A DNA stretch of 34,783 nucleotides. Source: Thermoproteota archaeon (GTDB lineage: Archaea; Thermoproteota; Thermoprotei_A; Sulfolobales; Pyrodictiaceae). Under the pieces are notes generated by a model. The model was not told the DNA's origin. It did not search any database and saw only the letters and a list, made by a program, of their open reading frames with translations. Shown piece after piece: positions 16,917 through 34,294 of the stretch. Within the stretch, counting starts at the first letter, position 1, and every line of letters starts with the position of its first letter. The stretch lies in contig JAADEY010000021.1 in assembly GCA_013153145.1 (NCBI GenBank), forward strand, positions 1-34,783. Reading direction: 5' to 3'. The position numbers and the translations under genes were made by a program.

Positions 16917-18800
16917 TTACTCCTTGGCTTTGACTGTGACTGGTAGTCCTTTCTTGAGCCTCTCCTCTACGGTCCTCGCCATGTCCCTTATTATGTCGTT
17001 CTTGCAGATTGTTGCTATTGGTGCTCCCTTCTCGTCCACTACTGGTATTCCGTCGACATTGTATTCCTCCATTAGCTTGACGGCCTTGTATATTGTGTCG
17101 GTCATTGTTAGTGTTACATCTAGCGGTGTTGTAGCGTCTATCGCTAGTAGCGGTGTTACCTTCACGTACCTGCCCTTCCTCGGGCCTGCCTTGGTTATCC
17201 TCCTGACCCAGATCAGTCTCCTGCTCTTGATGCCCTCGACTGCGTCCTCGAGTGCTATGAATGGTAGCCTGTTAGCGGATACGACGCCGTGTATCCTTGA
17301 GCCGTCGAAGACTGTTACTGCGTCTAGGTAGAACATCTTCATGCGCTTGACAACGTGTGCTAGGCTGTGGTGTGGGTGTACTATGCTGGTCTTGCCGGGC
17401 ATGACTACGTTCTCTACCAGTATGCTTGCGCCCTTCGCCTCGGCGTATGCCTTCACTAGGTCGTCCTTTGTTATGAAGCCTATTATGTTGCCCTTCTCGT
17501 CCACCACGTATGCTAGCTCGGCCTTCTCGTTGAATAGCTGGTATGCTGCCTCCTCTATGCTCGCGTCGGCCGGCACCTTGGGTATGTTGCGCTCCATCAC
17601 GTAGTCTATGAAGAGGCGGTCGTGCACCCTCCTCTTCCATATCGGGCCCTTCAGCGCTATAGCCTTGAGCATACTCCACTTGGTCACAACGCCAGCTATC
17701 CTCCCATCCTCGTCGATGACTAGGATGTAGTTGGAGCCGGTGCGGAGCATCACGTTCCTGGCGTGCTCGACGGTGTCGTTGATGCTTATGGCTGGCAGCT
17801 CCTCCCTCATGTAGTCCCTGACCCTGGGCCCAACATACTCCGTTACAGCCGGCTTCGCCTTAGCGACCTGGACCAGGAGCTGGCCGGACTGCTGGTAGCG
17901 TAGCTGCTGCGCCGCGGGAACCGGCACCGGCAGTACCGCCTTCTTCGCAGGCCTCACCCTGCCGGGCTTCGCACCCTCCAGGTACGCCCTCACCACATCC
18001 TCAAGCGTTATCACTCCAACCAGCTTACCCTCCTCATCAACCACTGGGAGGACTGTGAACTCGTTCTCAGCCATAATCCTGGCCACATAGCTTATCGGGG
18101 TCTCCGGCGTAGCCGCCGGCGCACCACGTATCATTATCGTTTTGACCTTCGCTATGCTCTTCAACCCCCTCTCGCTCTCACGGTGGAAGAACCAGCGGCT
18201 AGTCTCCACGAACTCCTTAGGAGTTATCAGCCCAACCGGGGTCGGCTCCTCCTTACTCCTCAGCACAACCTTCCCGGGCACTCCATGGTACACGAAGTCA
18301 GCCCAGACACGGTTAACACCCTCATCCGGGTAGGTCACATACTTCTCTATATCCTCCTTAGTCATAACCTCCTCAACGGTCTCCGCAATAGGTTCAACGC
18401 CAGCCTTCAACAAGCCAAGCACAATGTCGCTGAGGGTAAGCACACCCTCAAGTCTCGCCTCCCTACCCTTAACAACAGCAGCACCATAGAGGCGGTGCTC
18501 CCTAAGCCTCTCAAACACCTTGTCAAGATCCTCCTCAACATCTATCAACGGCTCACTAACCATTATATCCTTGGCGCGGAGATGACTATAATGACTAGTT
18601 ATCTGTATAACCTCCCTCCTCGTAATATAGCCGAGAACCTTACCCTCCTCAGTAGCAACAACAGCAACACCCTCCTCATTATCCCTCATCAAAGCCCTAA
18701 CCACAGTAGCAGGAGTATCAGGCTCAACAACCACCCTAGGCCTCCGCGCCAACTCCCAAGCCTTAAAGCTCAACCAACCACCCAAGACAAGCCACGCCAC
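16917..18800 (-). CDS. Protein with eight CBS domains (four Bateman modules)
   Basis: The 627-residue chain is almost entirely CBS repeats, which bind adenine nucleotides or related ligands and act as energy sensors. I place them at about residues 21-67, 74-131, 142-200, 217-274, 325-382, 397-453, 461-517 and 546-608. Typical ends are GYITRREVIQ, GVLTLSDIV, GLITPKEFV, GVITLEDVV, GVVTKWSML, GFITKDDLV, GVVSANRL and ATICKNDII. No catalytic domain is attached; a Pro/Gln-rich linker (about 280-320) divides it into two halves of four. GTG 18800 is the longest start; the first 20 residues may not be translated. Wobble use runs from T/G at the 5' end to C/A at the 3' end. Partner unknown. Confidence 0.82.
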   Translation of the reverse strand: MAWLVLGGWLSFKAWELARRPRVVVEPDTPATVVRALMRDNEEGVAVVATEEGKVLGYITRREVIQITSHYSHLRAKDIMVSEPLIDVEEDLDKVFERLREHRLYGAAVVKGREARLEGVLTLSDIVLGLLKAGVEPIAETVEEVMTKEDIEKYVTYPDEGVNRVWADFVYHGVPGKVVLRSKEEPTPVGLITPKEFVETSRWFFHRESERGLKSIAKVKTIMIRGAPAATPETPISYVARIMAENEFTVLPVVDEEGKLVGVITLEDVVRAYLEGAKPGRVRPAKKAVLPVPVPAAQQLRYQQSGQLLVQVAKAKPAVTEYVGPRVRDYMREELPAISINDTVEHARNVMLRTGSNYILVIDEDGRIAGVVTKWSMLKAIALKGPIWKRRVHDRLFIDYVMERNIPKVPADASIEEAAYQLFNEKAELAYVVDEKGNIIGFITKDDLVKAYAEAKGASILVENVVMPGKTSIVHPHHSLAHVVKRMKMFYLDAVTVFDGSRIHGVVSANRLPFIALEDAVEGIKSRRLIWVRRITKAGPRKGRYVKVTPLLAIDATTPLDVTLTMTDTIYKAVKLMEEYNVDGIPVVDEKGAPIATICKNDIIRDMARTVEERLKKGLPVTVKAKE

Positions 18801-18803
18801 CCT

Positions 18804-18819
18804 CTATAGTAATAAACCC
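18804..18819. promoter_or_regulatory. Divergent TATA region between the CBS protein gene and tRNA-Glu
   Basis: CTATAGTAATAAAC contains TATA-like elements on both strands. On the plus strand it lies about 40 bases before tRNA-Glu. On the minus strand TTTATTACTATAG lies immediately upstream of GTG 18800, which would leave little leader and favours a later start for the CBS protein. Confidence 0.4.
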
Positions 18820-18854
18820 CTCCAACATCAACAACCAATAACCCGACGGAGGCT

Positions 18855-18932
18855 GCCGCGGTAGTATAGCCCGGCCAAGTATGCGGGCCTTTCAAGCCCG
18901 TGACCCGGGTTCAAATCCCGGCCGCGGCACCA
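18855..18932 (+). tRNA. tRNA-Glu (TTC), CCA encoded
   Basis: The acceptor GCCGCGG pairs with CCGCGGC. The anticodon stem CGGGC/GCCCG with loop CUUUCAA gives anticodon UUC. The T arm is CCGGG-UUCAAAU-CCCGG. Discriminator A 18929 is followed by CCA at 18930-18932. The region after it is compositionally mixed and holds ORF remnants, as often seen beside tRNA genes used as integration sites. Confidence 0.95.
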
Positions 18933-19092
18933 ACCAACCACAACCCCCACTTAAAAGCCACACAGGCTCTGAAAGGCTGCAGGGCAGCTCACCAATAGAC
19001 ATACGCGTGGTTTCCCTCGACAGCACCGTAGATTGATACGGCCTGAGCCATATTGGGGCCAATACTCAAGGGCTTCAACCGAACGAGGCTGA

Positions 19093-19299
19093 GATGGGGC
19101 TGCAGAGGAGGCTAGGAGTCGCCGCCTACGTGGAGGACTATACCTTGGGTTACCGGGCTACACCGAGGCTTGCAGGGGGATACGGGAGGGCCTCACGCGG
19201 GCGTATCAGGAGAAGCGCGTTGTGTATCTGTATATTTCTCGGCTGGCTGCGTGTTTTACTTTGCTCGTAAACGTCTTAGAGTACTTGAGGACTGGGTGA
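19093..19299 (+). pseudogene. Decayed ORF fragment (about 68 codons), possibly integrase remnant
   Basis: One frame between the stops at 19090 and 19297 reads as plausible protein: LYLGLPGYTEACRGIREGL, then RVVYLYISRLAACFTLLVNV and LEYLRTG. It has no convincing start codon or ribosome site. The helix-rich pattern, ending in a hydrophobic helix followed by a leucine-rich one, vaguely recalls the central part of archaeal tyrosine integrases, and it lies next to tRNA-Glu. That link is only pattern-based and weak. The rest of the gene-poor stretch 18933-19338 shows nothing else that I can identify. Confidence 0.25.
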
Positions 19300-19338
19300 A
19301 TGCCTAAGGAGCAATAATTCCGTTCGAAGGAGATCTCG

Positions 19339-20205
19339 TTGGATCGGCACAGGGAAGCCATCATGAGGGCTGTGCTTAAGCTGAGTGGAGCGGGGCTTGG
19401 GGCTTATCACTGGCTGCTTGACTGGCTTAGACGGCTCTGCAGGAGAGAGCCATTATCTGTGCATTGTTATGCCCTTCACTACCTAACGCATGAGCCTGCA
19501 AGAACCGAGATGATGCTGCTTCTTGAGGAGGGTGATAGGGTAGGGTCTTATCTCCTTGTATGGTGGGGCGGCAGGTACGCTATCCAGGATCTGTATGAGG
19601 TCTACCTATGGAAGCCATGCAAGGAGCTGGTTTCAGCGCTTTACGTGCCGCCCAGTAAGCGGGTTGACATACAATTGTATGATTACGTTCCAAGCGATAT
19701 TAAAACAGTTGTAAAGCATATGGAGGGTCTGGGATTCAAGAGATTTCACATCGGGAAATTCTATGACATGGTATGCTGGCATGACACCTTCAGGCCAAGC
19801 CCGCTTGAAGCCCTTGCGGTTAGGCTAGGGGAAGAGCATGCACCCCTTTACCGGGAGCTGGAGCTTGAAAGGGGAATAGAAATAGGCATTGAAGAGGCCA
19901 GGATGATTCTCAGGGAGTATGTCCATTACGGCGTCATTATCAACAATACACTCGCATCAATTGCTGCAAGGTACGTAACTCTCCAAGACATACACATCAT
20001 AGGCGGCGTCTACACGAGAACCAGGTATAGGAGGAGAGGCTATGCAACCGCCGTTACATCTGCTTTAACAAGGGAGGCTGTGGGGTCGGGGGCCTTGGCG
20101 GGTCTCCACGTAGGAGTTGATAATAAGACTGCCATAGGGATTTACGATAAGCTTGGGTACAGGATATTGAGGGTCAGAGAGTGGATCTTCGCCTATCCTA
20201 CATAA
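19339..20205 (+). CDS. GNAT-family N-acetyltransferase
   Basis: GNAT enzymes move an acetyl group from acetyl-CoA to an amine. The C-terminal part (about residues 205-288) shows the fold: strand IGGVYTRTRYR, the acetyl-CoA pyrophosphate loop RRRGYA (231-236), a helix, then LHVGVDNKTAIGIYDKLGY (about 256-274) with the common N-xx-A-xx-Y-xx-LG end. The N-terminal 200 residues look like a degenerate second GNAT or FR47-like half. The TTG start at 19339 follows AAGGAGAT closely. Codons are more mixed than in flanking genes. It lies behind tRNA-Glu and a decayed ORF, so recent acquisition is possible. Substrate unknown. Confidence 0.75.
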   Translation: MDRHREAIMRAVLKLSGAGLGAYHWLLDWLRRLCRREPLSVHCYALHYLTHEPARTEMMLLLEEGDRVGSYLLVWWGGRYAIQDLYEVYLWKPCKELVSALYVPPSKRVDIQLYDYVPSDIKTVVKHMEGLGFKRFHIGKFYDMVCWHDTFRPSPLEALAVRLGEEHAPLYRELELERGIEIGIEEARMILREYVHYGVIINNTLASIAARYVTLQDIHIIGGVYTRTRYRRRGYATAVTSALTREAVGSGALAGLHVGVDNKTAIGIYDKLGYRILRVREWIFAYPT

Positions 20206-20281
20206 GGGTTGATGCAGAGCCACTATGAAGGCTCCCAGAACTAGCGCCCGCGATGGGCTGGATAAACTAGGGGTCGTTCCT

Positions 20282-20899
20282 TTAAGCTACAACCCCGGCT
20301 CCATTCATATCCCTTCTTGTTAGACGGCTGCATACTTCTCTGCCCAGTCTCCCTTGCCTACAGAGTTCCTCTACCTCGTCGAGCTGCGTTTCTTCTATGC
20401 AGAGGTATGTCTCTCCGTGTACGTGGTGTACGTATGCGTCTATGAGTCTGTCTTGTAGTTCTTTGGCGTATTTCTCCGCGTTGACGGGGTCTAGTGGGAT
20501 GCGGGTGTACTTGCTGGTTACATAGCTTATGCAGCATTCCTCTCCCACTAGGACGTGGAGGGTTTTTAGGGTGTTGTTGTCGATCACTTGTATTTCTAGG
20601 CTGCCTCCACCGTTACAACAATATGTTACGCCTGTAGCCTTGCTGCCTATGAGTGACGAGAGCAGCTCTACTACCTTGGGGCTGCACTTCTCCCTGCTAC
20701 AGTCCTGTCTCGCTTCGTGCCCATCGATTTCTAGGCCCCAGTCACAGCACTTAAGCCCCCGGTTGAGTCTCCTCCTGAATATGTAGACTTCTAGCTCCAC
20801 TCCGTTGCTGAATATGAGGTCGAAGCCGCAGGGGCCGCATCGTGCCCCCTCTATCTCCGCGTTGACATGTATGCTTGCACAGCAGCTTATGGTAGGCAT
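20282..20899 (-). CDS. Cysteine-rich hypothetical protein
   Basis: I do not recognise it. The 205-residue sequence has 15 cysteines. Four are adjacent CC pairs: residues 6-7 and about 51-52, 94-95 and 122-123. It also has a CGPC motif (21-24), DCSREKC, and single cysteines in the C-terminal 40 residues. No signal peptide or membrane helix is visible, so it should be cytoplasmic. Metal binding, an Fe-S site or multiple disulfides are all possible. ATG 20899 has GGAGA upstream. It sits alone, divergent from the methyltransferase gene, between the GNAT gene and that gene. The 3' end stops about 75 bases from the convergent GNAT stop. Confidence 0.55.
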   Translation of the reverse strand: MPTISCCASIHVNAEIEGARCGPCGFDLIFSNGVELEVYIFRRRLNRGLKCCDWGLEIDGHEARQDCSREKCSPKVVELLSSLIGSKATGVTYCCNGGGSLEIQVIDNNTLKTLHVLVGEECCISYVTSKYTRIPLDPVNAEKYAKELQDRLIDAYVHHVHGETYLCIEETQLDEVEELCRQGRLGREVCSRLTRRDMNGAGVVA

Positions 20900-21078
20900 T
20901 GCGGTCTCCTTCGGGGCTGTGCTTGGTGCTGGAGGCTGATAAGTTGTGGGCGTTTAGGTGTGTGTAGCTGTAGTCATGCCTCTTATTAGGGCTGCACGGT
21001 GCATGTGTTAGTACTTTCTTGATCGGGCTCCGCGGCCCTCTCGGCTTGGAGGCTTGTTCATGTAGGGGGCTGCTCGTC

Positions 21079-21942
21079 TTGGCTGCTGGGTTGGAGGAGC
21101 TGTATAGGTGGCTTCCGTGGCCCATGAGGCCCGGGAACCCGGAGGCTGAGAGGAGGTTTGAGGCTTACCGGAGGCTCTTCTCGGGGCTCATTGAGGGTCA
21201 TCCCTCCTTTGGGTGGCTGCGGGGGAGGCGTAGTGTCTCTGTGCTGGATGTTGCTGCTGGTACTGGTATTGCTGGGGCTGCTATGGCTTCCGCTCTGGAG
21301 GGGGCTGGGTTTGATGTATGGCTTGTAGCTGTTGATTGCCGGGCCGGGGATCTACGCTTTCTCCCCGCATGGCTCGGCCGTGCCGGCTCCAGGGCCGTGT
21401 ATGATGTCGTTGCCGGCGATGCACTGCTGCTCCCAAGGCTCCTCCGCGGGGGCTTCGACGTAGTACTCCTCATGGGTTCGAGCTTCCCCCACTTCAACCC
21501 CTGGCAGGCTGCACGCATCATCGCCGGCATACACCGTCTCCAGCCACGACACGGAGTCTTCCTAGCGGAGCAATGGGATATAGCTGGGAGCGTGATCCTA
21601 CGCAACGCCTACCGCCACATACTCCTCGAGGGCGGCCAGGTAGACGAGGAGGGCGGGGGGCTCATCTCCCTCCACACGGGCTACGACAAGTACCGGGGCG
21701 TGTTCCGGAAGGCCCACTACCGTATCCCCGGATGGCGCTACATAGGCTCGATGGAGACGCACCTCTGGTACCTCTCATGCCTGGCAGTCCTCCTCTGGCT
21801 ATACTACGGCGAGGTAGACGCAGCTGAGCCGGCCGGGGCTAGGTATGCCCGCACCGTGCTGATCGCATGGAGGCCCAGGGCCAGGGCTACTCCCTATAGT
21901 GAGCTGAGAGAACCCATGCTGCTGAGGAGGGGGAGCGGCTAG
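21079..21942 (+). CDS. Class I SAM-dependent methyltransferase-like protein
   Basis: The Rossmann-type SAM-binding core is visible: motif I VLDVAAGTGIAG, an acidic strand end VAVDC (about 30 residues later), VAGDALLLP, and FDVVLLMGSSFPHFNP, which matches motifs II-IV. The C-terminal half has strands such as YRGVFRKAHYRI and a hydrophobic helix LSCLAVLLWLYYGEV. The frame is open from TTG 21019, but a TTG at 21079 with AGGGGG eight bases upstream is a better start and removes a poorly protein-like leader. Substrate unknown. Codon ends change from T/G near the start to C/A near the stop. Confidence 0.7.
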   Translation: MAAGLEELYRWLPWPMRPGNPEAERRFEAYRRLFSGLIEGHPSFGWLRGRRSVSVLDVAAGTGIAGAAMASALEGAGFDVWLVAVDCRAGDLRFLPAWLGRAGSRAVYDVVAGDALLLPRLLRGGFDVVLLMGSSFPHFNPWQAARIIAGIHRLQPRHGVFLAEQWDIAGSVILRNAYRHILLEGGQVDEEGGGLISLHTGYDKYRGVFRKAHYRIPGWRYIGSMETHLWYLSCLAVLLWLYYGEVDAAEPAGARYARTVLIAWRPRARATPYSELREPMLLRRGSG

Positions 21943-22024
21943 GCCCCCTCCCGGACGCCTATAGTGTTGCCGGGCATGCAGACTCCGGGCGAGGAGCCGC
22001 GACGGGTGAGCAGCGTTAAGCGAC

Positions 22025-22489
22025 CTGATAATAGCCATCGATGTCAGCTGGGGCGGCAAGGGGGTAGTGGCGCTGGTGGGTGCCAGGGAGCATGTATTGA
22101 AGACTAGGAGGTTCTCCACCATCGCCTCCATGCTGAAGCATTACCGCGAGCTCCCCTCTAGGCGTAAGCACAGCTACATCAAGGCTTTCGTGAGGAGGTA
22201 TTTCAGAATCTACGACTATATAGAGGTTGCAAGGATATACATATACGGCGGCTCATCAATGAACAAGGTTAATGAGCTGCTTAGGCTACTAGACCCAGCC
22301 CTCGTCATAGTGGATGACAGCCTCTACAAGCTGGTCGTGTTTCCGAGGAAGGTGAGGGAGAGCATGGCGAGAAGGAGGCATGAGGAGTACCTAAAGAGGG
22401 TCGCAGACAACCTTGCAAACTATTTCAGGGTGTTGTTGGAGGAGGAGCCGAGACTCTTCAGGGAGGAGCTTGAGAGGTTTGAGAAGTGA
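22025..22489 (+). CDS. Small RNase-H-fold-like hypothetical protein with a disturbed start
   Basis: The clear protein frame begins LIIAIDVSWGGKGVVALVG, a strand-Asp-strand pattern like RNase H/RuvC or actin-type folds, and later has ALVIVDDSLYKLVVF. The C-terminal third is a charged helix. In this frame GTG 22067 is the first standard start but would cut off the first strand and its Asp; CTG 22025 keeps it. A GTG at 22006, nine bases after GAGGAG, reads VSSVK and would join the frame if one base near 22021 were skipped, so a frameshift is possible. It follows the methyltransferase gene by about 80 bases. No family recognised. Confidence 0.5.
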   Translation: MIIAIDVSWGGKGVVALVGAREHVLKTRRFSTIASMLKHYRELPSRRKHSYIKAFVRRYFRIYDYIEVARIYIYGGSSMNKVNELLRLLDPALVIVDDSLYKLVVFPRKVRESMARRRHEEYLKRVADNLANYFRVLLEEEPRLFREELERFEK

Positions 22490-22510
22490 GGGCCGCCGGG
22501 TCACGGGGCC

Positions 22511-22542
22511 GCTCCACGGATCATCTTCACTCACCGTGGAGC
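22511..22542. repeat. Perfect 9-bp inverted repeat (hairpin)
   Basis: GCTCCACGG at 22511-22519 pairs with CCGTGGAGC at 22534-22542 across a 14-base loop, about 20 bases after the stop of the RNase-H-like gene. It could end transcription or protect the 3' end of the message between the two convergent genes. Confidence 0.45.
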
Positions 22543-22622
22543 CCGGCGTCCCCGGCGGGGAGCCTCCCAGCCATCCCGTATCCTCTGGGTCTTGGTTATT
22601 CTGGTATAAGGGTTGCCGCTCT

Positions 22623-23363
22623 CTAGGCGGCTGGGCAGATGCTCGCCGCTAGGGGCACTGCCAGGGTCATGAGTAGTGTGCCGAGTGCTATTGGTAGTGC
22701 GATGAGTAGTGCTGCTGGCTGCTTCTCGCCTACTGCGTAGAGGACTGCTATGTCTGGTATCGCTGTACCCGATAATATGAGTGCTATGGTTAGTGCATCC
22801 GTCTTCCTCATCACGGTGCCGAGGAAATGGATTCTCGGTGGGAGTACGACCGCGGATGCTATGGCTGTGGCGAAGGCAGCCAGGTATAGGATGACTGCGG
22901 CTCCGAAGAGGATGCGTGCACGGTTAACAATCCTAATCCCCGCCGCTGCGGGGGCCGGGCCCCCGGCCATGCCGATGAGCCTGCCGGCCAGCCTCGACGC
23001 GCCATAGCCTAGGAGGATGCGGCGCCCATCCAGCGTCTCTACTAGGAGGAGGTCGCATACATCATCACTATATACGAGCGCCTCCCCTAGGCCGCGTACG
23101 TGGTAGCGGCCCGAGTACCTCGAGCCGGGCAGGACGGGGCCTCCGAGCCGCTCACCGAGCTCGATACAGCCAATGACCTCGACCCTCCGGGCTGCGGAGA
23201 GGGGTATGCTCAGCCAGCCGTATGGCCCGAGGGATAGGGTGAGCCTATCGCCGCGTAGAACGACACGCGGCCTCGCGAGCCTAGCCGCCGCCAGCACGAG
23301 CAGGCTTCCGAGGGGGGCTATGACGAGCCCAGCGTAGAACAAGAGGTCGGCCAGGCACACCAA
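22623..23363 (-). CDS. Multi-pass membrane protein with a PH-like domain
   Basis: The 246-residue protein starts with a membrane helix (about residues 5-28). It continues with a beta-rich soluble region (about 33-125) of short strands, RVVLRGDRLTLSLGPYGWLSIPL and RRILLGYG, that resembles bacterial-type PH (bPH) membrane-associated domains. Three more helices follow at about 148-172, 188-208 and 217-240. The role is unknown. It lies 34 bases downstream of the iron-sulfur flavoprotein gene on the same strand and may share its transcript. Family match uncertain. Confidence 0.55.
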   Translation of the reverse strand: MVCLADLLFYAGLVIAPLGSLLVLAAARLARPRVVLRGDRLTLSLGPYGWLSIPLSAARRVEVIGCIELGERLGGPVLPGSRYSGRYHVRGLGEALVYSDDVCDLLLVETLDGRRILLGYGASRLAGRLIGMAGGPAPAAAGIRIVNRARILFGAAVILYLAAFATAIASAVVLPPRIHFLGTVMRKTDALTIALILSGTAIPDIAVLYAVGEKQPAALLIALPIALGTLLMTLAVPLAASICPAA

Positions 23364-23397
23364 GGCCCCACGACACCCGCCCCGCTGGTTCTCACGC

Positions 23398-23982: not shown

Positions 23983-24094
23983 GAGTAGGCGCCATTCTCC
24001 CCGGGGAGGAGGGTAGCGCTGATATGCTTCACCGGTATACGCCTCCTAGATACCCCTGCGAGAGCCAGCACGTACCGGCAGGAGGGGGGCCTCC

Positions 24095-26829: not shown

Positions 26830-26894
26830 TACATGTGGATGCCCTCCACCGTATACTACTATATACACGTCTCCGGCACCGTGAACGTATACTA
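26830..26894 (+). promoter_or_regulatory. Candidate operator region of csa3
   Basis: TACATGTGGATGCC (26830-26843) is close to TACACGTGGACGCC upstream of csa5 (28325). GTATACTA occurs twice here (26851-26858 and 26887-26894) and again before the 27681 gene (27656). Shared motifs upstream of the regulator and the genes behind it suggest binding sites for one protein, most simply Csa3 itself. Confidence 0.45.
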
Positions 26895-26948
26895 GGAGAG
26901 AGGAGATATTAGCCCCGGCCCCTCCCCTTCATCACGGGATGGGCATAC

Positions 26949-27614
26949 ATGAAGAGCCTTATCGCGACGCTCGGCTTCGACGATAAGCCTATAACGCATG
27001 CGACGCTCATCGACCGCTACGACCTCCTCATCGCCATCGCCCTCAAGACCAGCAGCGAGGCTTGGAGCAGGGTTGAGATGGCCTACCATAAGGCCCTGGG
27101 GGTTGTCCGTGATAGGATTCAGCGCGCCAGGCTCGTGGGCGTGGAGATACCCGCGGGTGTCGGGAGGGAGAGGCTGCTCAGCTGGCTCACCCGCAGGGTT
27201 AAGGAGGTTGTTGAACCAGTTGTACGCGACTCGAGCAGCGTCGTCCTGCAGCTGAGCGGCGGGCCTAGGATGCTCATACTAGCCGTCTACACCGCCGCCA
27301 TGAGCCTCGACGACCCCGAGGCCTCGAAGATCACAGTGATTGTTGAGGGTGAGGGGTTTGCAGCCGAGGCGTGGGAGCCCCTCATAAACCTCAAGCCGGT
27401 GCCGCTCACGAGCCTCCACCGCGCCGTGCTGAAGATACTCCTCGAGGCCGGGGCGCCCCTCGGCCCAACCGACGTCGCGTCGAGGCTAGGGGTCAGCAAG
27501 TCCACCGCCTACAAGTACCTCCGGCAGCTCATGGAGCACGGCCTCGTAGAGAAGGTGAACGAGAAGGGCAAGTACCGGGCCACCGGCAGGGCCCTCGTAA
27601 ACGCTGCTGTATAG
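26949..27614 (+). CDS. csa3: CRISPR-associated transcription regulator Csa3 (CARF-HTH)
   Basis: Csa3 regulators sense cyclic oligoadenylate or related ligands with a CARF domain and control cas genes or CRISPR arrays in type I-A systems. The N-terminal 140 residues are CARF-like: MKSLIATLGFDDKPITHA, then the conserved LSGGPRMLILAVYTAA (about 103-118). The C-terminal part (about 150-215) is a winged helix with TSLHRAVLKILLEAG, DVASRLGVSKSTAYKYLRQL and EHGLVEK. At 221 residues it is of usual length. ATG 26949 is the start. It opens the cas locus, 66 bases before the next gene, and its promoter shares motifs with those of downstream genes. Confidence 0.87.
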   Translation: MKSLIATLGFDDKPITHATLIDRYDLLIAIALKTSSEAWSRVEMAYHKALGVVRDRIQRARLVGVEIPAGVGRERLLSWLTRRVKEVVEPVVRDSSSVVLQLSGGPRMLILAVYTAAMSLDDPEASKITVIVEGEGFAAEAWEPLINLKPVPLTSLHRAVLKILLEAGAPLGPTDVASRLGVSKSTAYKYLRQLMEHGLVEKVNEKGKYRATGRALVNAAV

Positions 27615-27655
27615 GGGCCGGCGTACACCCTCATTTTTAATCCCCCATAATGACG

Positions 27656-27673
27656 GTATACTACACGCGCGTG
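27656..27673 (+). promoter_or_regulatory. GTATACTAC motif and CACGCGCGTG palindrome before the 27681 gene
   Basis: GTATACTAC (27656-27664) repeats the motif found twice upstream of csa3. It runs into the perfect palindrome CACGCGCGTG (27664-27673), which ends seven bases before the ATG at 27681. TTTTTAATC at about 27635-27643 may be the TATA box. A bound protein here would cover the transcription start. Confidence 0.45.
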
Positions 27674-27680
27674 CCTAGCC

Positions 27681-28289
27681 ATGGCCTCCGGGAGCATCAT
27701 AACCCGGGCGCTGAGCGTGGGGCCGGAGCCCCTCCAACGCGTCAGGCTCGGCAGCAGGGATGTACGCCGCCTCCTGAAAAGGAGCCCCGGCGTGATACCC
27801 TTCATAGAGCAGCCGGAGAAGTGCTTCGTGCTCGAGAACGTGGCGGTGGAGGACGACAAGGTAGACCTCCTGGTGGTAGAGCCGGGGCCTAGGAGGGCCA
27901 GCCCAGACCTATACCTCGTCTACCTGCGCTGGTACCGGTATGGCAGCAGGTTCGAGGCCTACTCGGCTGATGAGGCCTACTGGGAGATAGGCCACGACAT
28001 AGAGGCTGCGAGCGACTCGGTGGCAGCCGTCGGCGAGATGGGGTCCTCGAGGGAGCAGTGGGCCCTGGAGCTGAAGAGGAGGATTAAGGAGAGGCTCGGC
28101 GTGAAGAGGCTCTCCGTCGGAGAGGTCTACATGATAGCCGTGTTCGACGAGCTCCCCGCAAGCATAATAGGAATGATGGACTACGTGAACGACGTCGTAG
28201 GGGCATACGTGGACGCCATGCAGATCCAGCTCTTCCGGGGGAGGGGAGGCTGCGAGATGGCCGTGTCAAGCATCTACACGTGGAGGTAA
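27681..28289 (+). CDS. Uncharacterised protein inside the type I-A cas locus
   Basis: I do not recognise this 202-residue protein. It has a basic N-terminal stretch (GSRDVRRLLKRSPG), then an alternating alpha/beta body with KVDLLVVEPG and DLYLVYLRWYRYGSRFEAYSADEAYWEIG. A charged helix (ALELKRRIKERLG) follows, then VGEVYMIAVFDELP and a final helix with GMMDYVNDVVGAYVDAM. No transmembrane segment is seen. It sits between csa3 and csa5 on the same strand. Its promoter carries the GTATACTAC motif also present before csa3, so it is probably co-regulated with the CRISPR genes. An accessory or effector role is inferred from position only. ATG 27681 is the start. Confidence 0.6.
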   Translation: MASGSIITRALSVGPEPLQRVRLGSRDVRRLLKRSPGVIPFIEQPEKCFVLENVAVEDDKVDLLVVEPGPRRASPDLYLVYLRWYRYGSRFEAYSADEAYWEIGHDIEAASDSVAAVGEMGSSREQWALELKRRIKERLGVKRLSVGEVYMIAVFDELPASIIGMMDYVNDVVGAYVDAMQIQLFRGRGGCEMAVSSIYTWR

Positions 28290-28324
28290 AAAGCACCGGT
28301 ATAGGGTCTGCAGAACCGTTCATT

Positions 28325-28343
28325 TACACGTGGACGCCGTGTA
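28325..28343 (+). promoter_or_regulatory. TACACG/CGTGTA inverted repeat upstream of csa5
   Basis: TACACG (28325-28330) and CGTGTA (28338-28343) form a perfect inverted repeat with a seven-base spacer. The left part, TACACGTGGACGCC, matches TACATGTGGATGCC before csa3. TACACGTGGA also occurs at 28275-28284 at the end of the previous gene. CATAGTATAG at 28371-28380 may be the TATA region for the csa5-cas3'' operon. Confidence 0.5.
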
Positions 28344-28395
28344 GGTAGCCGTCTTTTACCGTCCACGGGGCATAGTATAGGCTGGTGCCCTACCC

Positions 28396-28809
28396 GTGCA
28401 GAGTACCGGGGAGCGGGGCGGAGCCCCGAGACTCTACTACATCTCCTGCATACTCTCCTACTTCGCCGAGAACAGGCAGTACGGCGTCCTGGACCGCGTC
28501 GCCAACGCGCTCGGCCCCGACCAGGCCATAGCCGCGCTCTACGACGCCCTCCGCTCCTACCGCAGCAACTGCGTGAAGCCCCCCGAGGAGTTCAACGCCA
28601 TGAAGCCCGAGGAGAAGAGGCTCTGCATGGCATGCGGCAAGGACCCACACGAGCTCGTCTCGAAGGCGAAGTACGAGGTCGAGGAGCTCTCCAAGCTCCT
28701 CCTAGACCCCGCGAGGATCGAGGAGGCGCTACGCCTAGCGAGGGTCGCCGCACTCTACGCACTCACCTACACGGGGGCCGGGCCCCGCTCCAAGCAGGGG
28801 GAGGGGTGA
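28396..28809 (+). CDS. csa5: Type I-A Cascade small subunit Csa5 (Cas11a)
   Basis: Csa5 is the helical small subunit that lines the crRNA-target groove of the type I-A complex. The 137-residue, mostly helical protein starts, after a variable N terminus, with LYYISCILSYFAENRQYG and continues through GPDQAIAALYDALRSY and a long charged helix to RLARVAALYALTYTG. These helices and the position directly before cas7 fit Csa5. CMAC near residue 77-80 is notable. GTG 28396 is the start; a strong ribosome site is not seen, so it may be leaderless or have a short leader. The stop codon overlaps the ribosome site of cas7. Confidence 0.78.
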   Translation: MQSTGERGGAPRLYYISCILSYFAENRQYGVLDRVANALGPDQAIAALYDALRSYRSNCVKPPEEFNAMKPEEKRLCMACGKDPHELVSKAKYEVEELSKLLLDPARIEEALRLARVAALYALTYTGAGPRSKQGEG

Positions 28810-28815
28810 AGACCC

Positions 28816-29853
28816 ATGCCCGTCTACATGGCCGTATCGGCCCGCATACTAGTCAACATGGAAGCACTAAACATGGCTGAGAGCGTAGGCAACGTCGTAC
28901 GCCACCGCCGCGCACCAGTAGTATTCAGGACGGGTACGGGCTTCGTCCTCCGCTACGTGCCCGTCGTGAGCGGTGAGAGCCTGGCACACCACTACCAGCG
29001 CCTACTAGCAGAGCTCGCAAAGCAGCGCGGCCTACCAGTATGCAAGGCCTGCAGCCAGGGAGTCTTCCTCAAGCACGCCGACCGCCAGGTCTTCAAGACC
29101 TATGACGGGATAGCAGACCCTAAGAAGAAGTTCGGGAAGGGAACCGAGGTGGAGAAATACATAGTCGAGAACTGCGTCGTGGAGGACATAGGAGGCTTCC
29201 TCTTCACAGACATGACTATAAAGAGGACCTCGAGGTTCAGGGTAGGCTACATGGTGCCCGCCCTAGACGCCCTTGAGAAGGGCGCGGCAGCAACCGAGGC
29301 CCAGTTCCATGTAAGGTACTCGCCCGGCGCCCAGGCAGGGCAGCAGGCGATATACTACGTTGAGGTGGGGAGCGCCGTCTACGTCTTCAACTACGCTCTC
29401 GACGCCTCAGCGGTAGGCATGTACAGCGCCGAGAACCCCGGCTACTCCGAGAAGACACCATACATACTCAGCAAGGAGGAGAGGCTGAAGAGGGTTGAGC
29501 TGGCCGTCGACGCCCTCGCAGCACTCCTGGGGGGCATGGCGTGGGGCGCTAAGACGAGCAGGTTCATGCCCCACTGGAAGGTGGTCAGCCTAGTAGCCGC
29601 CGTCGCAAGCCCCATACCCTTCACCGTCAGCCCCGGCCACGACAAACACTACCTCGTAGAGACCGTGGAGAGGGCCTGCACCCTGGCAGGCATGGTAGGC
29701 GGCTTCAACGCCACGATATACTACTACGACGACGAGGGCCTCGACAAGCCCAGGGCCTGCAGCGGAGTCGCCGTAGAGGCCTCCAGGAGCTACCTGGAGG
29801 CACTCAACAAGGCCAAGCAGGCGCTCCTGGAGAAGCTGCGTAGGGAGGAGTAA
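28816..29853 (+). CDS. cas7: Type I-A Cascade backbone protein Cas7 (Csa2)
   Basis: Cas7 forms the helical backbone that holds the crRNA. The 345-residue sequence has the Csa2/DevR-type start VYMAVSARILVNMEALNMAESVGN followed by RRAPVVFRTGTGFVLRYVPVVSGESLAHHYQ. Later it has FTDMTIKRTSRFRVGYMVPALDA, and near the end SRFMPHWKVVSLVAAVASPIPFTVSPGH. Cysteines at about 74 and 77 (CKAC) are typical of crenarchaeal members. ATG 28816 lies six bases past the csa5 stop, with GGAGGGGTGA as ribosome site. It would assemble with Cas5, Cas8a and Csa5. Confidence 0.88.
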   Translation: MPVYMAVSARILVNMEALNMAESVGNVVRHRRAPVVFRTGTGFVLRYVPVVSGESLAHHYQRLLAELAKQRGLPVCKACSQGVFLKHADRQVFKTYDGIADPKKKFGKGTEVEKYIVENCVVEDIGGFLFTDMTIKRTSRFRVGYMVPALDALEKGAAATEAQFHVRYSPGAQAGQQAIYYVEVGSAVYVFNYALDASAVGMYSAENPGYSEKTPYILSKEERLKRVELAVDALAALLGGMAWGAKTSRFMPHWKVVSLVAAVASPIPFTVSPGHDKHYLVETVERACTLAGMVGGFNATIYYYDDEGLDKPRACSGVAVEASRSYLEALNKAKQALLEKLRREE

Positions 29854-29874
29854 GCTGGGAGGGGCAGCCTTGTA

Positions 29875-30684
29875 TTGAAGCTAGTAATGGTGGTCTCCAG
29901 GGTAAGGCTCGCCTGGGGCTACAGCATACGCTACGCCGGCGCCAGCGCCGCCCAGCCAGCCCTCCCACTACCCCCGCCAACAAGCATAGTCGGCTTCTAC
30001 GCAGAGCCCCTAGCCAGGCTCGCCGGCCTACCCGAGAAGGGGCCGAGGAGCGTGATCAGCCTACTAGCAGGCGCCGTGTACGCCGCCGCCGCAGGCCTAG
30101 ACCCCGGGGGACGCGTAGGAGTCGCAGTCTACGCCGACGCGACCAGGATACTCAGCCTAGTCTTCCAGAGGAAGAGGAAGGAGTGGCAGAAGTACGCCTG
30201 GGCCGTACAGTCCATGGGGGCGGCCTACGCGCCGGGAGCAACACTATACCTCGCACTACTCCTCGACGCGGAGAAGGCAGCCAGGAGCCTCGGGCTGGCC
30301 ACGGGCAGGCTCATAGAGGCACTGCAGGCAGCCGGCTGGAGGCTCGGGGCGAAGGAGGGCCTAGCAGCACCCGTAGAGACCATCGCCGGCGAGCCCGTAG
30401 GCAGCACGGGCGAGTACGAGTCCATCCTCTACCAGGACAGCCGGGCGGCCAGCCACACACGCGGCACGGTGGTCGAGGTTGACATGTGGGGCCTGGAGGC
30501 GCTGACGAGGAGGAGCCCGACGCCGAGCTACCGGGTCTTCATGGTGCCCGCATCACCCGAGTCCACGCCATCCCTCATACTACCCCCCTACGAGCCCGCC
30601 GCCTTCACGCCGAGGAGCGGGCGCCGTGCCTACTGCCTCGAGGAGGCCCCAGAGGGGCTCTGCGTAGCAGCGGAGACGGGGTGA
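29875..30684 (+). CDS. cas5: Type I-A Cascade subunit Cas5
   Basis: Cas5 caps the 5' handle of the crRNA. The 269-residue protein begins with the RAMP strand LVMVVSRVRLAWGYSIRYAG and then LPLPPPTSIVGFYAEPLARLAG, the PPxTxxG-type loop typical of Cas5. MVPASPESTPSLILPPYEP lies near the end. TTG 29875 has GGGAGGGG ten bases upstream; ATG 29887 in the same frame is an alternative. It lies 21 bases after cas7 and seven before cas8a. Confidence 0.83.
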   Translation: MKLVMVVSRVRLAWGYSIRYAGASAAQPALPLPPPTSIVGFYAEPLARLAGLPEKGPRSVISLLAGAVYAAAAGLDPGGRVGVAVYADATRILSLVFQRKRKEWQKYAWAVQSMGAAYAPGATLYLALLLDAEKAARSLGLATGRLIEALQAAGWRLGAKEGLAAPVETIAGEPVGSTGEYESILYQDSRAASHTRGTVVEVDMWGLEALTRRSPTPSYRVFMVPASPESTPSLILPPYEPAAFTPRSGRRAYCLEEAPEGLCVAAETG

Positions 30685-30691
30685 GCATGGC

Positions 30692-31822
30692 TTGCTGCGC
30701 GTCGAGCTCTTCCCCCCGGGCTGGATGGGTAGGAGCCTACAGCTCCTAGCCATAGCCGTCGGCGGCCCCGAGCACCTAGACCGGCTCAGCCCAGACGCAG
30801 CCCTCTTCCCCGACAAGGAGGCCTTCATAGACCTGCTCCTAGAGGCCTACAGTATAGCCGAGAGCATAGCGCTCGCCAAGGCCAGGAAGCCCCAGCCACG
30901 CCTCTACGGGAACGACACCAAGCCGCTGAAGAAGCTGCTCGGCGTCAAGGTCACCCGCTGGGGGGACGCCGCCAGGCTCCTCGTCGAGAGGCTCGAGAAG
31001 GGCGAACTAGACCCCGGAGGCCCGAGAGTAGTCGCAGTTATGCTCACCAAGCTGAACATCTTCGAGCACCTGAGAGCGGAGGCCGGTGCTGTGAAGGCTT
31101 CCGGCCCCGCCTCCCAGACCACGCCGGCCGGCCTAGCACTAGCCATGGTCGGGGGCCTCCTAGCGAAGATGGGGGCCGTCGGCACCACCGGCGTATACCT
31201 CCTACCAGGCCCAGACACCCCCCTCGAAGCACTAGACGACATAGCACCCCTCTACGCCGTCCTAGCCCTAGAGCCCGGCGAGGACACGACACCACCACTA
31301 CCATACATCTTCACCCCGAGGACGAACAACGCGCCCGTCAGCCTCGACGTACTCCTAACAATCTACGGCGCCTCGATACTAGCAGACCAGTTCAGCGAGG
31401 AAGAGGAGAGGCTATGCGGCGAGACCAGGCTAAACGCCCTCCACATGGCAAGCATAAGCGAGGCAGGCAACCGCCCAATACTAGCCCAGCTAGCACCCCT
31501 AAGCTTCTCCGAGCCCCTCTGCCTCCTAGGCACAAAGGCGCTGAAGACGGCGGGCAGGCTGATACACCAGGCCCTCACCAGGGGCATATGCCGCGGCGGC
31601 GGGTTACGCGGAGCAGCAGACCCCGGCTCCGAGGCCGTGCTGGCCTGCACCGGTAAACTCTACCTATACAGCATGACCGGCAACAACACCTTCCTCTACG
31701 ACTGCGCCCGCCTCATACACCAGGCATCAACAACGAAGGAGTGCAGCGGAGCCAAGAACCTCACATGGCTCCTAAGAAGCCTACGCAGCACACCACCAGG
31801 CAGAGAGGTCCAGGTCACTTGA
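30692..31822 (+). CDS. cas8a: Type I-A large subunit Cas8a (Csa4-like)
   Basis: The gene takes the Cas8a place between cas5 and cas3'. Cas8a recognises PAM and target DNA in the effector complex. The 376-residue protein has no classic motif, as is usual for this fast-evolving family. It shows a mixed alpha/beta first half (ELFPPGWMGRSLQLLAIAVGGPEHL, SLDVLLTIYGASILADQF) and a helical, cysteine-containing last third. TTG 30692 follows GGGGTGAGC at the cas5 stop. The final codons overlap the TTG start of cas3' as TTGA. Assignment rests on order and size more than on sequence. Confidence 0.7.
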   Translation: MLRVELFPPGWMGRSLQLLAIAVGGPEHLDRLSPDAALFPDKEAFIDLLLEAYSIAESIALAKARKPQPRLYGNDTKPLKKLLGVKVTRWGDAARLLVERLEKGELDPGGPRVVAVMLTKLNIFEHLRAEAGAVKASGPASQTTPAGLALAMVGGLLAKMGAVGTTGVYLLPGPDTPLEALDDIAPLYAVLALEPGEDTTPPLPYIFTPRTNNAPVSLDVLLTIYGASILADQFSEEEERLCGETRLNALHMASISEAGNRPILAQLAPLSFSEPLCLLGTKALKTAGRLIHQALTRGICRGGGLRGAADPGSEAVLACTGKLYLYSMTGNNTFLYDCARLIHQASTTKECSGAKNLTWLLRSLRSTPPGREVQVT

Positions 31823-33525
31823 AGCCGCCCTGGGAGAGGCCGGGAGTAGAGGAGCTGGCACAGCTAACCAGGAGAGGGGAAAACACCGTCTTCATAGCCC
31901 CAACCGGCTACGGCAAGAGCAAGTCAACCCACCGCCTCCTAGCCATAGCCGAGCAGGAACATGTAGCCGTAAGAGCAGTACACGTACTCCCCCTACGCGC
32001 ACTAGTCGAGGAACTCTACAACTACTACACGGGGCTCCTAGGAGACGCCGCAGGCTACCTTGCAGGAATACACCACCTACCAAGGAGTGGCTACAGCGGC
32101 CTAATGCTACGCAGGCTAACCGTCTCAACGATAGACAGCTTCTCCCTAAACCTCGCCAAGGTGCCGGTAACCGAGCTGAGGATGGTGAGGGAGGGGCTAA
32201 TGGAGGGACACTACGAGCTCCCAAGAACAGCCATACTGACAAGCCTAGTGGTGCTGGACGAGACACACCTCTACGCCGAGCCCTGGACAAACAAGCCACA
32301 ACCACCACTAGGCAGAATATTCCTAGAAGCAGCCGCCGAGACACTAGCAGAGATGCACACACCACTAGTACTCGAGACAGCAACACTACCAGTAAACTAC
32401 ACCAAGAAGCTAGCAAAGATATCCAAGGCAAGAATACTAGCCGTCTGCAGGAGCTGCGGAGACAACACATACACACGCATACACGACAAAGAATACGAAG
32501 AAACACACACCCACCAATGGAGGACAAGACTCGCCAAAGGAGGACTACCCGAAGCCACAAAGAAGGCCCGCGAGGAAGCCGAGAAGGGCAGAAAAGTACT
32601 CCTAGCAGTAAACACCGTCAAAGACGCCCTCCAAGCCCACAGCCTACTACTAGACATGGGCCAAAAACCAGTACTAATACACGGCAGGCTCTCAGCAAGA
32701 GACAGGATGGAGGCAGTCAGGAAGATAAGAGAAGCAGAAATCATCATAGCAACGCAGGTCATAGAGGCGGGAGTAGACGTAGACGCAGAAGCACTAGTAA
32801 CAGCAGCAGCCCCACCAAGCACACTAGCACAACGAGCAGGCAGGCTATGCAGGTCGGAGAAGACCATAGAGAAGTGCAGCGAGGAACCACCAACAATAAC
32901 AATCTACACGCCCAGCCAACCCCACCCATACCCACAGAGAACCATACAGAAGACAATACACCTAATAACACACATACTCACAGGAGGCAAGGAGATAGAG
33001 TGGCGCCTACTAGACGACAGGCCAGGCTACAAGACATACACCCACCTAATAGACGCAGCAGAACAACCAACATACCATAGGCCACCAGGAGAAGTAACAG
33101 CATACAAGATACTCCTAAGATACACGCTACAAAACCCCCTCATAGGACACAAGTACACCGACACACTACTAGAGAGGTACTGCAGCCTAGTACGCGGCAC
33201 AACACTAGTAGCCCTAGCAATACCCCGCGGCAAAGACTACGACCACCTAGAAGCACCACTAGACTGGCTCAAACACCACCCCGAGATACTCGAATGCCGC
33301 CAAGGAAGATGCAAGATAATAGCAATACACTACACCGACACCGGAGAGGAAGCAGAAGAGGAATGGATAGACGCACAGACAGTATCAAGAATGCTCACAA
33401 GCTGCAAAACATACCAAGAAACACTGGCAAGAATAGCATCAAAGACAAAGACCAGAAACATACACGACATACACCTAGCAGTCAAAGAAGAAGCCTACAA
33501 GCCAGGCATAGGCCTCACACCATGA
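31819..33525 (+). CDS. cas3': Cas3' helicase subunit
   Basis: This is the superfamily 2 helicase half of split Cas3, which unwinds target DNA after recognition. With TTG 31819 (overlapping the previous TGA as TTGA, GAGGT upstream) it has 568 residues. Motif I is APTGYGKS (27-34). Motif II is D147-E-T-H150, a DETH box in place of DEAH. Motif III is ETATLP (186-191), motif V ATQVIEAGVDVD (311-322) and motif VI QRAGRLCR (338-345). Two CxxC-like cysteines (RSCGD region and near 350) occur. The frame is open 26 codons upstream, but that stretch looks like a shadow. Wobble positions become A-rich through the gene. Confidence 0.9.
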   Translation: MKPPWERPGVEELAQLTRRGENTVFIAPTGYGKSKSTHRLLAIAEQEHVAVRAVHVLPLRALVEELYNYYTGLLGDAAGYLAGIHHLPRSGYSGLMLRRLTVSTIDSFSLNLAKVPVTELRMVREGLMEGHYELPRTAILTSLVVLDETHLYAEPWTNKPQPPLGRIFLEAAAETLAEMHTPLVLETATLPVNYTKKLAKISKARILAVCRSCGDNTYTRIHDKEYEETHTHQWRTRLAKGGLPEATKKAREEAEKGRKVLLAVNTVKDALQAHSLLLDMGQKPVLIHGRLSARDRMEAVRKIREAEIIIATQVIEAGVDVDAEALVTAAAPPSTLAQRAGRLCRSEKTIEKCSEEPPTITIYTPSQPHPYPQRTIQKTIHLITHILTGGKEIEWRLLDDRPGYKTYTHLIDAAEQPTYHRPPGEVTAYKILLRYTLQNPLIGHKYTDTLLERYCSLVRGTTLVALAIPRGKDYDHLEAPLDWLKHHPEILECRQGRCKIIAIHYTDTGEEAEEEWIDAQTVSRMLTSCKTYQETLARIASKTKTRNIHDIHLAVKEEAYKPGIGLTP

Positions 33526-33538
33526 GGAGGCCCCCGAA

Positions 33539-34294
33539 ATGCCCATCTACGCATGGCCCAACGTAAGACTATACCAGCACAGCCGGAACACAGCAGCAAT
33601 ACTACTAGCACTCATGGAGCCCGAGCTAACAGTAGCCGCGAAAAGACTAGGAATAAGCAGAGAGGAGATACTAGCCCTAGCAGCCGCAGCAGCAATACTA
33701 CACGACACCGGCAAAGCAGCAAGAGAATACCAACAAACAATAAACACCGGGAACCCCAGCTTCTACTGCCACGAGCTCCTCAGCTCATGGATAACCCTCG
33801 AAACACTAGAAAAACTAACAAGCCAACACAAAGCAACAATAGCAGCAATAGCAGTACTAAGACACCACCACGGCATGAGAAGCCTAGCAAAATGCCTCAA
33901 CAAACCACCACACACAACAACCACAAGCATAGACTACAAGGAACTCGCAAAAGAAATAGCAGAAATAGACACACCCCTAGCAAGACAACTAGCAGAGAAA
34001 ACAGCATCCATAAAGACATTCAGGCCACTAACACCAAAAGAAGCAGCAAAAACAACAATAAACAAAACAAACAAGCTACCAACACCATGGAAAGCAGCAG
34101 CAACAATACTCACCGGCACACTAGCACTAGCAGACTACCTAGCAGCAACACTACTAGACAACAGAACAAACAACCCACAACCAAAAGGATACGCCAAAGA
34201 AGCACTAAAAGAACTAGCATGGAGAACAAAACAACAAGAACCAAACAAACTCAAAGAAAAAGGCCTAAAACAACTCAAAACACTAAAACTATAA
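33539..34294 (+). CDS. cas3'': Cas3'' HD nuclease subunit
   Basis: This is the HD-domain nuclease half of split Cas3, which cuts single-stranded target DNA with metal ions. Expected ligands are visible: H14 (LYQHSRNTA), H55-D56 (AILHDTGKA), H78 (FYCHELLSSW), and H109-H111 (VLRHHHGM). A later Asp is in LALADYLAA. At 251 residues it is of usual size. ATG 33539 has GAGGAGG about ten bases upstream, 13 bases after the helicase stop. It ends the operon. Its plus strand is extremely A-rich (one 60-base stretch from 34021 holds 34 A and 3 T), the far end of the gradient seen along the locus. Confidence 0.88.
   Translation: MPIYAWPNVRLYQHSRNTAAILLALMEPELTVAAKRLGISREEILALAAAAAILHDTGKAAREYQQTINTGNPSFYCHELLSSWITLETLEKLTSQHKATIAAIAVLRHHHGMRSLAKCLNKPPHTTTTSIDYKELAKEIAEIDTPLARQLAEKTASIKTFRPLTPKEAAKTTINKTNKLPTPWKAAATILTGTLALADYLAATLLDNRTNNPQPKGYAKEALKELAWRTKQQEPNKLKEKGLKQLKTLKL

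Follow-up and report, generated by a model that had tools for sequence, protein, structure and literature searches.

The human genome contains N-shaped skew domains, in which upward jumps, located at origins, are linked by near-linear falls. On the level of single genes, Hooper and Berg reportedly described, in 2000, intragenic codon and nucleotide gradients in E. coli. In yeasts, according to one study, the leading strand is A/C-rich in S. cerevisiae and K. lactis, and upward jumps of the GC and TA skews occur at some S. cerevisiae termination sites (PMC3459929). tRNA genes of yeasts have been described as replication fork barriers, with polarity in S. cerevisiae but not in S. pombe (PMC5368702). 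In human cells, phospho-RPA has been reported at the ends of transcription and not at the starts (PMC7414224). One review on archaeal replication makes no mention of tRNA (PMC5333045), and among the open-access matches listed there was no precedent for an archaeal skew centred on tRNA genes.

Here, we describe a synonymous drift along the genes of an archaeal contig and its relatives. The underlying strand asymmetry is real and is widespread among the relatives tested, but not present in all of them, and several of the extreme cases are centred on tRNA genes. The drift is very probably the sum of three strand asymmetries: a trend along transcription units, a part centred on tRNA genes, and a long-range field associated with Cdc6 loci.

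The window, that is, the whole stretch of 34,783 nt that was analyzed, is contig 40 of the 47 contigs of a Pyrodictiaceae-like genome of 1.19 Mb (79% complete). The molybdo-oxidoreductase encoded there shares 78% identity (best segment) with the counterpart in a Pyrodictium sp. MAG, and 10 of the 18 relatives searched belong to the same family as the source genome. The sample of the source genome comprised 887 kb including the window, in which 895 ORFs were called with an amino-acid log-odds caller that takes the first start codon in frame; in the window, it missed a gene at 30692-31822 that overlaps the longest start of cas3'. The features of the window that are discussed below are compiled in Table 1.

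Table 1. Positions of the discussed features within the window
Feature	Position	Strand	Remarks	Basis
608-aa protein	921..2747	+	no Pfam or NCBIfam match; T-rich (T61/A1 at 1-2 kb)	composition
DUF4097-like gene	8849..9622	+	name from the original prediction; no Pfam match	composition
tRNA-Ala	9676..9749	-		ARAGORN, Rfam
tRNA-Ile	9902..9976	+		ARAGORN, Rfam
HTH_10 regulator	9977..10645	-	abuts tRNA-Ile; + strand T-rich, hence coding strand A/C-rich	Pfam
One sawtooth tooth between two tRNA loci	10000..16700	.		1-kb profile
PadR-family regulator	16067..16573	+	left of tRNA-Gly; A-rich and T-poor all along	Pfam, composition
tRNA-Gly	16764..16839	-	upward jump 1.05	ARAGORN, Rfam
CBS-domain protein	16917..18800	-	between tRNA-Gly and tRNA-Glu	Pfam CBS; slope z
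tRNA-Glu	18855..18929	+	upward jump 0.90	ARAGORN, Rfam
csa3...csa5, csa2 (cas7), cas5, orf376, cas3', cas3''	26949..34294	+	type I-A-like cas run	Pfam, NCBIfam

Synonymous drift along genes

The original prediction held that synonymous codon choice changes from G/T-ending to C/A-ending codons along genes and operons. The base counts on which it drew were reproduced exactly on recounting, with 34 A, 17 C, 6 G, and 3 T at bases 34021-34080, and 6 A, 13 C, 18 G, and 23 T at bases 1141-1200. The drift was quantified as the slope of T-A at four-fold sites and was compared with synonymous permutations inside each gene, with the amino acids kept fixed. By this statistic the drift is real: the slope was negative in 22 of the 27 window genes of sufficient length, with z about -2 or lower in 14 genes and z > +2 in a single gene. 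For the 692 genes sampled in the source genome, z was below -3 in 73 cases and above 3 in 6 cases. The permutation null was calibrated in the relative G016 (mean z -0.06, sd 1.00), where none of 147 genes was below -3 and none above 3. The mean slope z was -0.81, -0.64, -0.49, and -0.34 in the same-family relatives G009, G003, G007, and G001, respectively, and -0.33 in the order-level relative G012.

Along the 645 complete genes, the four-fold T/(T+A) was 0.515 in the first tenth, decreased to 0.330 by the ninth, and rose to 0.379 in the last, and G/(G+C) was flat (0.41-0.44). Thus, the change from G/T-ending to C/A-ending codons applies to extreme loci, whereas on average T is replaced by A, with G and C flat. 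Two of the examples singled out at the outset proved to be strong ones: the gene with eight CBS domains has a four-fold T-A slope of z = -11.0, and the csa3-cas3'' run is indeed extreme at its end, with four-fold counts of T13/A8 at the beginning and T0/A75 at the close. Over this run, T-A falls from about 0 to -0.85, and the run ends about 0.5 kb short of the contig end; no tRNA gene inside the contig accounts for its skew. The slopes of csa2 and cas5 within it are opposite to the trend (z +1.7 and +1.9). Altogether, four-fold sites on one strand range from T61/A1 to T0/A85 within this one contig. Upstream of the T-rich gene for the 608-aa protein, a change point lies at 656-662, within the preceding ORF.

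The drift had also been described as following the direction of transcription on either strand. The pattern as such is present, but a falling T-A reads identically on both strands, so that orientation alone is no argument for transcription.

A trend along inferred transcription units

Transcription units were inferred from intergenic gaps. No reset of T-A was observed across tandem gaps of at most 40 bp (jump 0.014 +- 0.011, n = 222, in the source genome; 0.017, n = 33, in G009), whereas a reset occurred across tandem gaps of more than 150 bp (0.162 +- 0.041, n = 52, and 0.172, n = 15, respectively). Hence, T and A are about equally frequent on the coding strand at the start of an inferred unit, A exceeds T at its end, and the skew resets at the unit boundaries; the drop of T-A along units amounts to 0.07-0.09. 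The difference in T-A between the start and the end of a unit was 0.091 [0.060,0.124] in the source genome, with positive values for 119 of 173 units, and it was similar in G009 (0.100; 29/39), G007 (0.094; 32/39), G003 (0.080; 32/48), and G012 (0.070; 27/41). In G016 it was 0.022, with an interval that spans zero (21 of 32 units positive). A third-position trend with distance from the start is therefore present along the inferred units in the source genome and in most of the relatives sampled.

The arrangement of neighboring genes is informative as well. More than 4 kb away from RNA genes, in the source genome and in G009, the jumps were about 0 at divergent gaps, 0.13-0.53 at convergent gaps of more than 40 bp, 0.16-0.17 at tandem gaps of more than 150 bp, and about 0.015 at tandem gaps of at most 40 bp. 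This is roughly the pattern that a trend per unit, starting near 0 and ending near -0.15, predicts, with roughly additive contributions.

Could replication strand alone produce the drift? Local fields are strong, with gene halves such as T67/A2 and with sign changes, as this explanation would lead one to expect. However, with fork direction inferred from the strand field, the within-gene drop was the same in genes oriented with the neighboring field (0.070), against it (0.071), or in neutral surroundings (0.080). The trend thus persists when replication strand is controlled for, and replication strand as the sole cause, which we regard as extremely improbable, is refuted by the equal drop across field classes. 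Selection on codons or on the message, be it a translation ramp or mRNA structure at starts, receives some support from the finding that T-ending NNY codons are more common over the initial 300 bp of units, G016 included, in line with a generally relaxed structure near gene starts. It is nevertheless very unlikely as the main cause: the skew is not reset between operon genes 40 bp or less apart, and it is further contradicted by the situation near tRNA genes, where both gene orientations are affected and codon positions 1 and 2 are included. It was rejected on these grounds, and the selection on message structure that had been offered as one reading of the drift is disfavored for the tRNA part in particular.

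A third candidate, an effect of transcription distance per gene or operon as the single cause, through polymerase-linked mutation or repair and with nothing special about tRNA genes, has more in its favor. The trend follows unit starts and resets between units but not within operons; it is found away from tRNA genes in the source genome, G009, G007, G003, and G012; it is independent of the field; and the gene slopes in G009 do not depend on the distance to tRNA genes. The evidence that speaks against it comes from the surroundings of RNA genes.

Strand asymmetry around tRNA genes

The start skews of divergent gene pairs, read on the coding strand, are correlated at -0.64 (n = 91) in the source genome, and the end skews of convergent pairs at -0.53 (n = 76). 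These negative correlations indicate that, in this genome, the skew largely belongs to the physical strand. Whichever way genes point, T-A tends to drop from left to right within them, and it tends to rise abruptly in certain gaps; among the gaps with |D| of at least 0.55, there were 53 up-jumps versus 21 down-jumps.

tRNA genes were predicted with ARAGORN, and RNA genes were confirmed with Rfam, with L067 outside the Rfam scan. The Rfam-confirmed set of the source genome consists of 24 clusters, of which 5 of the 48 sides were dropped because they had too few sites, and it omits four tRNAs found by ARAGORN only (jumps -0.02, 0.22, 0.45, and -0.57). It was used for the two-sided jumps, the approach side, the flank profile, the unit trend, and the field classes; the count of jumps in 24 gaps and the distance profile of the outward strand take in all four ARAGORN-only tRNAs. 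T-A jumps up in 20 of the 24 gaps with predicted tRNA genes, with a mean of about 0.45 (summed from the listed values). For the Rfam-confirmed RNA genes, the mean two-sided jump was 0.334 (n = 19) versus 0.018 in 208 control gaps, a result obtained in 0 of 20,000 resamplings, and the outward T-A was positive on 29 of 43 sides. In the source genome the effect is often one-sided, with both sides positive in 7 of 19 cases and a correlation between sides of -0.66. Divergent gaps of more than 120 bp had a mean jump of +0.62 when a tRNA gene was present (n = 4) and of -0.055 when it was not (n = 50). The only SRP-RNA gene seen (Rfam; at about 1.38 kb in L032) also lies at an up-jump, with D 0.80.

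The outward strand contains T40/A11 at 150-300 bp from a tRNA gene, compared with a genome mean of about T15/A20, stays T-rich for 1-3 kb, and has an outward T-A near zero by 3-4 kb. Thus, a bidirectional asymmetry is centred on tRNA genes, with an outward strand that is T-rich and A/C-poor whichever way the neighboring genes point. With outward T-richness on both sides, the skew takes a sawtooth shape, its upward jumps being located at tRNA genes.

The window illustrates this structure. Its largest upward jump in + strand T-A, 1.10, is found at the site of tRNA-Ala and tRNA-Ile. In 1-kb bins, the + strand T-A is -0.44 on the left side of this site, +0.35 just right of it, and -0.34 at tRNA-Gly, so that the single tooth between the two loci falls from +0.35 to -0.34 through genes of both orientations. 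Over the CBS gene the values are +0.24 and then -0.46, and beyond tRNA-Glu they are +0.05 and +0.23. The last third of the DUF4097-like gene, just left of tRNA-Ala, has A44/T1 at third positions. The PadR gene had been regarded as an exception to the drift; it is indeed A/C-rich throughout, but this composition is expected from its location immediately left of tRNA-Gly. For the HTH_10 regulator, the drift is not significant on its own (z -1.1), and its A/C-rich coding strand fits its place beside tRNA-Ile. The tRNA-centred asymmetry thus explains the CBS, PadR, HTH_10, and DUF4097-like genes as well as the fall across the tooth, and gives no account of the methyltransferase, SDR, cas6, ahbC-like, and cas genes. 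The CBS, PadR, HTH_10, and DUF4097-like genes lie beside tRNA genes, that is, in places with a T-rich outward strand for either gene orientation, and their own transcription is not the cause of their composition. The transcription-linked cause considered in the original prediction therefore holds for a modest part of the drift, namely the part that resets with units, is field-independent, and is found away from tRNA genes, but not for several of the strongest examples.

Among the relatives, outward T-A was positive on 33 of 39 sides in G009, reaching about 1.5 kb, and on 29 of 38 sides in G012, reaching about 1 kb; for each, 20 non-randomly chosen stretches were used, out of 45 and 43 tRNA hits, respectively. 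For the other relatives, +-1.5 kb around the best-scoring tRNA genes was analyzed (10 or 5 loci per genome, again not random), and positive outward sides numbered 15/20 in G003, 14/20 in G007, 12/17 in G001, 9/10 in G018, 8/10 in G014, 7/8 in G011, and 5/9 in G013, with a mean effect of only 0.05 in G001 and G007. At these loci no tRNA effect was found in G016 (6/10 sides positive, mean -0.004) or in G017 (3/9, mean -0.032). Altogether, the unit trend and the tRNA asymmetry are common to most relatives tested; G016 lacks both, and G017 lacks the tRNA part.

After correction for the mean of the coding strand, an effect was present within the first 300 bp on either side of the tRNA gene and was stronger upstream than downstream (0.360/0.239 in the source genome, 0.260/0.190 in G009, and 0.313/0.168 in G012). 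There was no consistent preference for genes pointing out over genes pointing in (0.484/0.219, 0.270/0.202, and 0.114/0.362, in the same order). The shift near tRNA genes was 0.305 at four-fold sites and reached 0.075 and 0.050 at codon positions 1 and 2. Noncoding flanks within 1 kb shifted by 0.066-0.103, compared with 0.16-0.31 at four-fold sites; within 300 bp of the tRNA gene, the values were 0.193 upstream and -0.055 downstream, and no outward shift was present in noncoding DNA within 600 bp downstream of tRNA genes.

These profiles bear on the possibility that outward U-rich sequence is selected for transcriptional insulation, blocking both read-through from strongly transcribed RNA genes and the entry of antisense transcription at 3' ends. 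Archaeal terminators are U-tracts, and away from RNA genes the jumps do occur at convergent and tandem gaps and not at divergent ones, both of which would suit insulation. Yet the tRNA effect is stronger upstream than downstream, single four-fold sites are affected out to 1-3 kb, and genes facing away from tRNA genes would bear U-rich messages to their own harm. We therefore consider insulation improbable.

For transcription distance as the single cause, too, the surroundings of tRNA genes are difficult. In the source genome, the mean slope z was -2.41 for the 30 genes that have an RNA gene within 300 bp but -0.64 for the 559 genes beyond 5 kb, although in G009 genes near RNA genes were not clearly steeper (-0.93, n = 7, versus -0.79, n = 118). 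Outward T-richness is found for genes facing toward or away from the tRNA gene in the source genome, G009, and G012, and divergent gaps jump only when a tRNA gene is present. As the only cause, transcription distance is unlikely: the tRNA effect, being neutral to gene orientation, refutes it in this role and leaves it as one component.

The association has its limits. Most of the 18 change points that were examined by eye had no adjacent tRNA gene, and many up-jumps lie away from any known RNA gene. A contrary case is a tRNA-Tyr gene with a long intron in L054 (ARAGORN only, jump -0.57), which lies at a strong downward step. By eye, this tRNA-Tyr gene appears genuine.

Long-range fields, Cdc6 loci, and a possible role of replication forks

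At the Cdc6 loci of the source genome, the orientation-corrected step in T-A plus G-C was -0.392 +- 0.052 and -0.217 +- 0.068, the strongest values obtained. Across five genomes, 9 of 9 comparisons were negative, of which four were within two standard errors of zero and two more barely beyond; one stretch is common to two comparisons in G007, and G003 has two Cdc6 genes that were counted as one place. Most comparisons used flanks at distances of tens to hundreds of kb, with a maximum of about 250 kb. The down-step at Cdc6 loci is thus clear for the two loci of the source genome and weaker elsewhere. A field that steps down at these origin-linked loci suggests that leading strands are A/C-rich. 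A chromosome-wide two-arm skew pattern was not found in the relatives, which, sampled at 10 points each (7 in G001), show only weak fields.

The sign of this step bears on the idea that tRNA genes are small, R-loop-primed sites of replication initiation with T/G-rich outward leading strands. The bidirectional, outward keto bias centred on genes that are expected to be strongly transcribed would agree with it. However, the step at Cdc6 loci, the expected true origins, is opposite in all nine comparisons, with the four near zero noted above, and by this sign outward forks should leave A/C-rich strands. Outward origins at tRNA genes are thus quite unlikely and were rejected.

Given A/C-rich leading strands, forks would be heading for the tRNA genes at which the skew jumps up. 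Stable-RNA genes might stop or slow replication forks arriving from either side, and the A/C-rich signature of the leading strand would then be directed at them on either side, in the manner of termination sites in yeast. This fork-barrier step behind the tRNA-centred part is tentative. The effect predicted for the approach side did not emerge: approach exceeded exit in 11 of 19 cases, with a mean difference of 0.052, and the far field and the difference between sides were correlated at 0.16. The stronger effect upstream of tRNA genes is not expected from a head-on barrier as in budding yeast, and the smaller shift of noncoding flanks than of four-fold sites is not expected from a purely mutational process. 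It also counts against a barrier that the effect fades within 1-3 kb, since forks travel much further. The best explanation overall, to which we give about an even chance, is that three additive asymmetries, most likely mutational, act together, with tRNA genes as fork barriers. For Pyrodictium-related, hyperthermophilic crenarchaea it is possible, if rather doubtful, that tRNA genes and perhaps other stable-RNA genes are two-way fork barriers that create kilobase-sized sawtooth domains of mutation bias, in addition to a weaker, 3'-directed bias along transcription units.

If so, fork barriers and origins (for example, at the strong down-steps at about 9 kb in L054 and about 7.5 kb in L026) would be readable from sequence alone, and the codon usage of a gene, and in part its amino-acid composition, would be determined by its position relative to a tRNA gene. 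Base composition would then be a cheap map of archaeal fork stops. A local strand bias of this strength would mislead analyses of codon usage, gene transfer, and phylogeny. tRNA genes seem to shape the mutation of the DNA on both flanks.

Compared with the described systems, one likeness is to the yeast skew jumps: as in yeast, the skew steps down at origin-linked loci and up at the stop points proposed here, and it is carried by third codon positions; the archaeal up-jumps differ in that they lie at tRNA genes, fade within 1-3 kb, and are known from sequence data only (PMC3459929). With the yeast tRNA barriers, they share tRNA genes as special chromosomal sites, but the barriers described there are fork-pausing sites tied to transcription and helicases and not to base composition (PMC5368702). 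The absence of jumps at divergent promoters resembles the distribution of phospho-RPA in human cells (PMC7414224); despite this likeness, transcription itself is favored for that component by a unit trend that does not depend on the field. The human N-domains likewise consist of upward jumps joined by near-linear falls, but they are far larger and have their up-jumps at origins, whereas the sawteeth described here are of kilobase scale and probably have the opposite meaning. Finally, as in the intragenic gradients of E. coli, the choice of base depends on where in the gene a site lies; here, it tracks transcription units and the tRNA neighborhood and not each gene start.

Skew steps within the genome

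When skew was compared across 6-kb flanks at 575 positions, the deepest drop (-0.71) was found at the tRNA-Tyr gene of L054, another sampled stretch of the same genome. This site is a possible extra origin. The tRNA itself was absent from the Rfam matches at gathering score. In the T-rich segment of L026, a second such stretch, the first half of one gene reaches T67/A2; the origin-like down-step at ~7.5 kb (-0.62) and the tRNA up-jump are separated by only ~5 kb.

In the window, T-A skew shifts abruptly at 656-662, within ORF 4-966, with neither an RNA gene nor a gap at the site. This change point may be a recombination joint.

Coordinates of the features (local to each stretch)
Feature	Location	Basis or remark
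tRNA-Tyr with intron of ~100 bases	L054 ~9000-9200	intron judged by eye
Strongly T-rich segment, tRNA-Arg through to down-step	L026 2700-8900	
ORF with AhbA and AhbB matches	window 4984-5973	NCBIfam profiles
DMSO-reductase type II-like molybdoenzyme, iron-sulfur subunit and chaperone, consecutive	window 10737-15782	NCBIfam
376-aa ORF	window 30692-31822	flanked by cas5 and cas3'

Heme-related, molybdoenzyme and cas genes

The gene at 3748-4956, named ahbC in the original prediction, instead scored highest with the radical SAM/SPASM family TIGR04053 (NCBIfam, over cut-off). The ORF at 5996-7204 is closer to NirJ1/AhbC, yet under the NCBIfam cut-off. Since siroheme decarboxylase AhbA (residues 16-157, under the curated cut-off) and AhbB (residues 190-324, over it) both match a single ORF, this ORF probably encodes an AhbA-AhbB fusion. 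For the molybdoenzyme row, each of the three matches is under the curated cut-off.

Neither Pfam nor NCBIfam profiles matched the 376-aa ORF; its position in the cas run suggests a candidate divergent type I-A large subunit.
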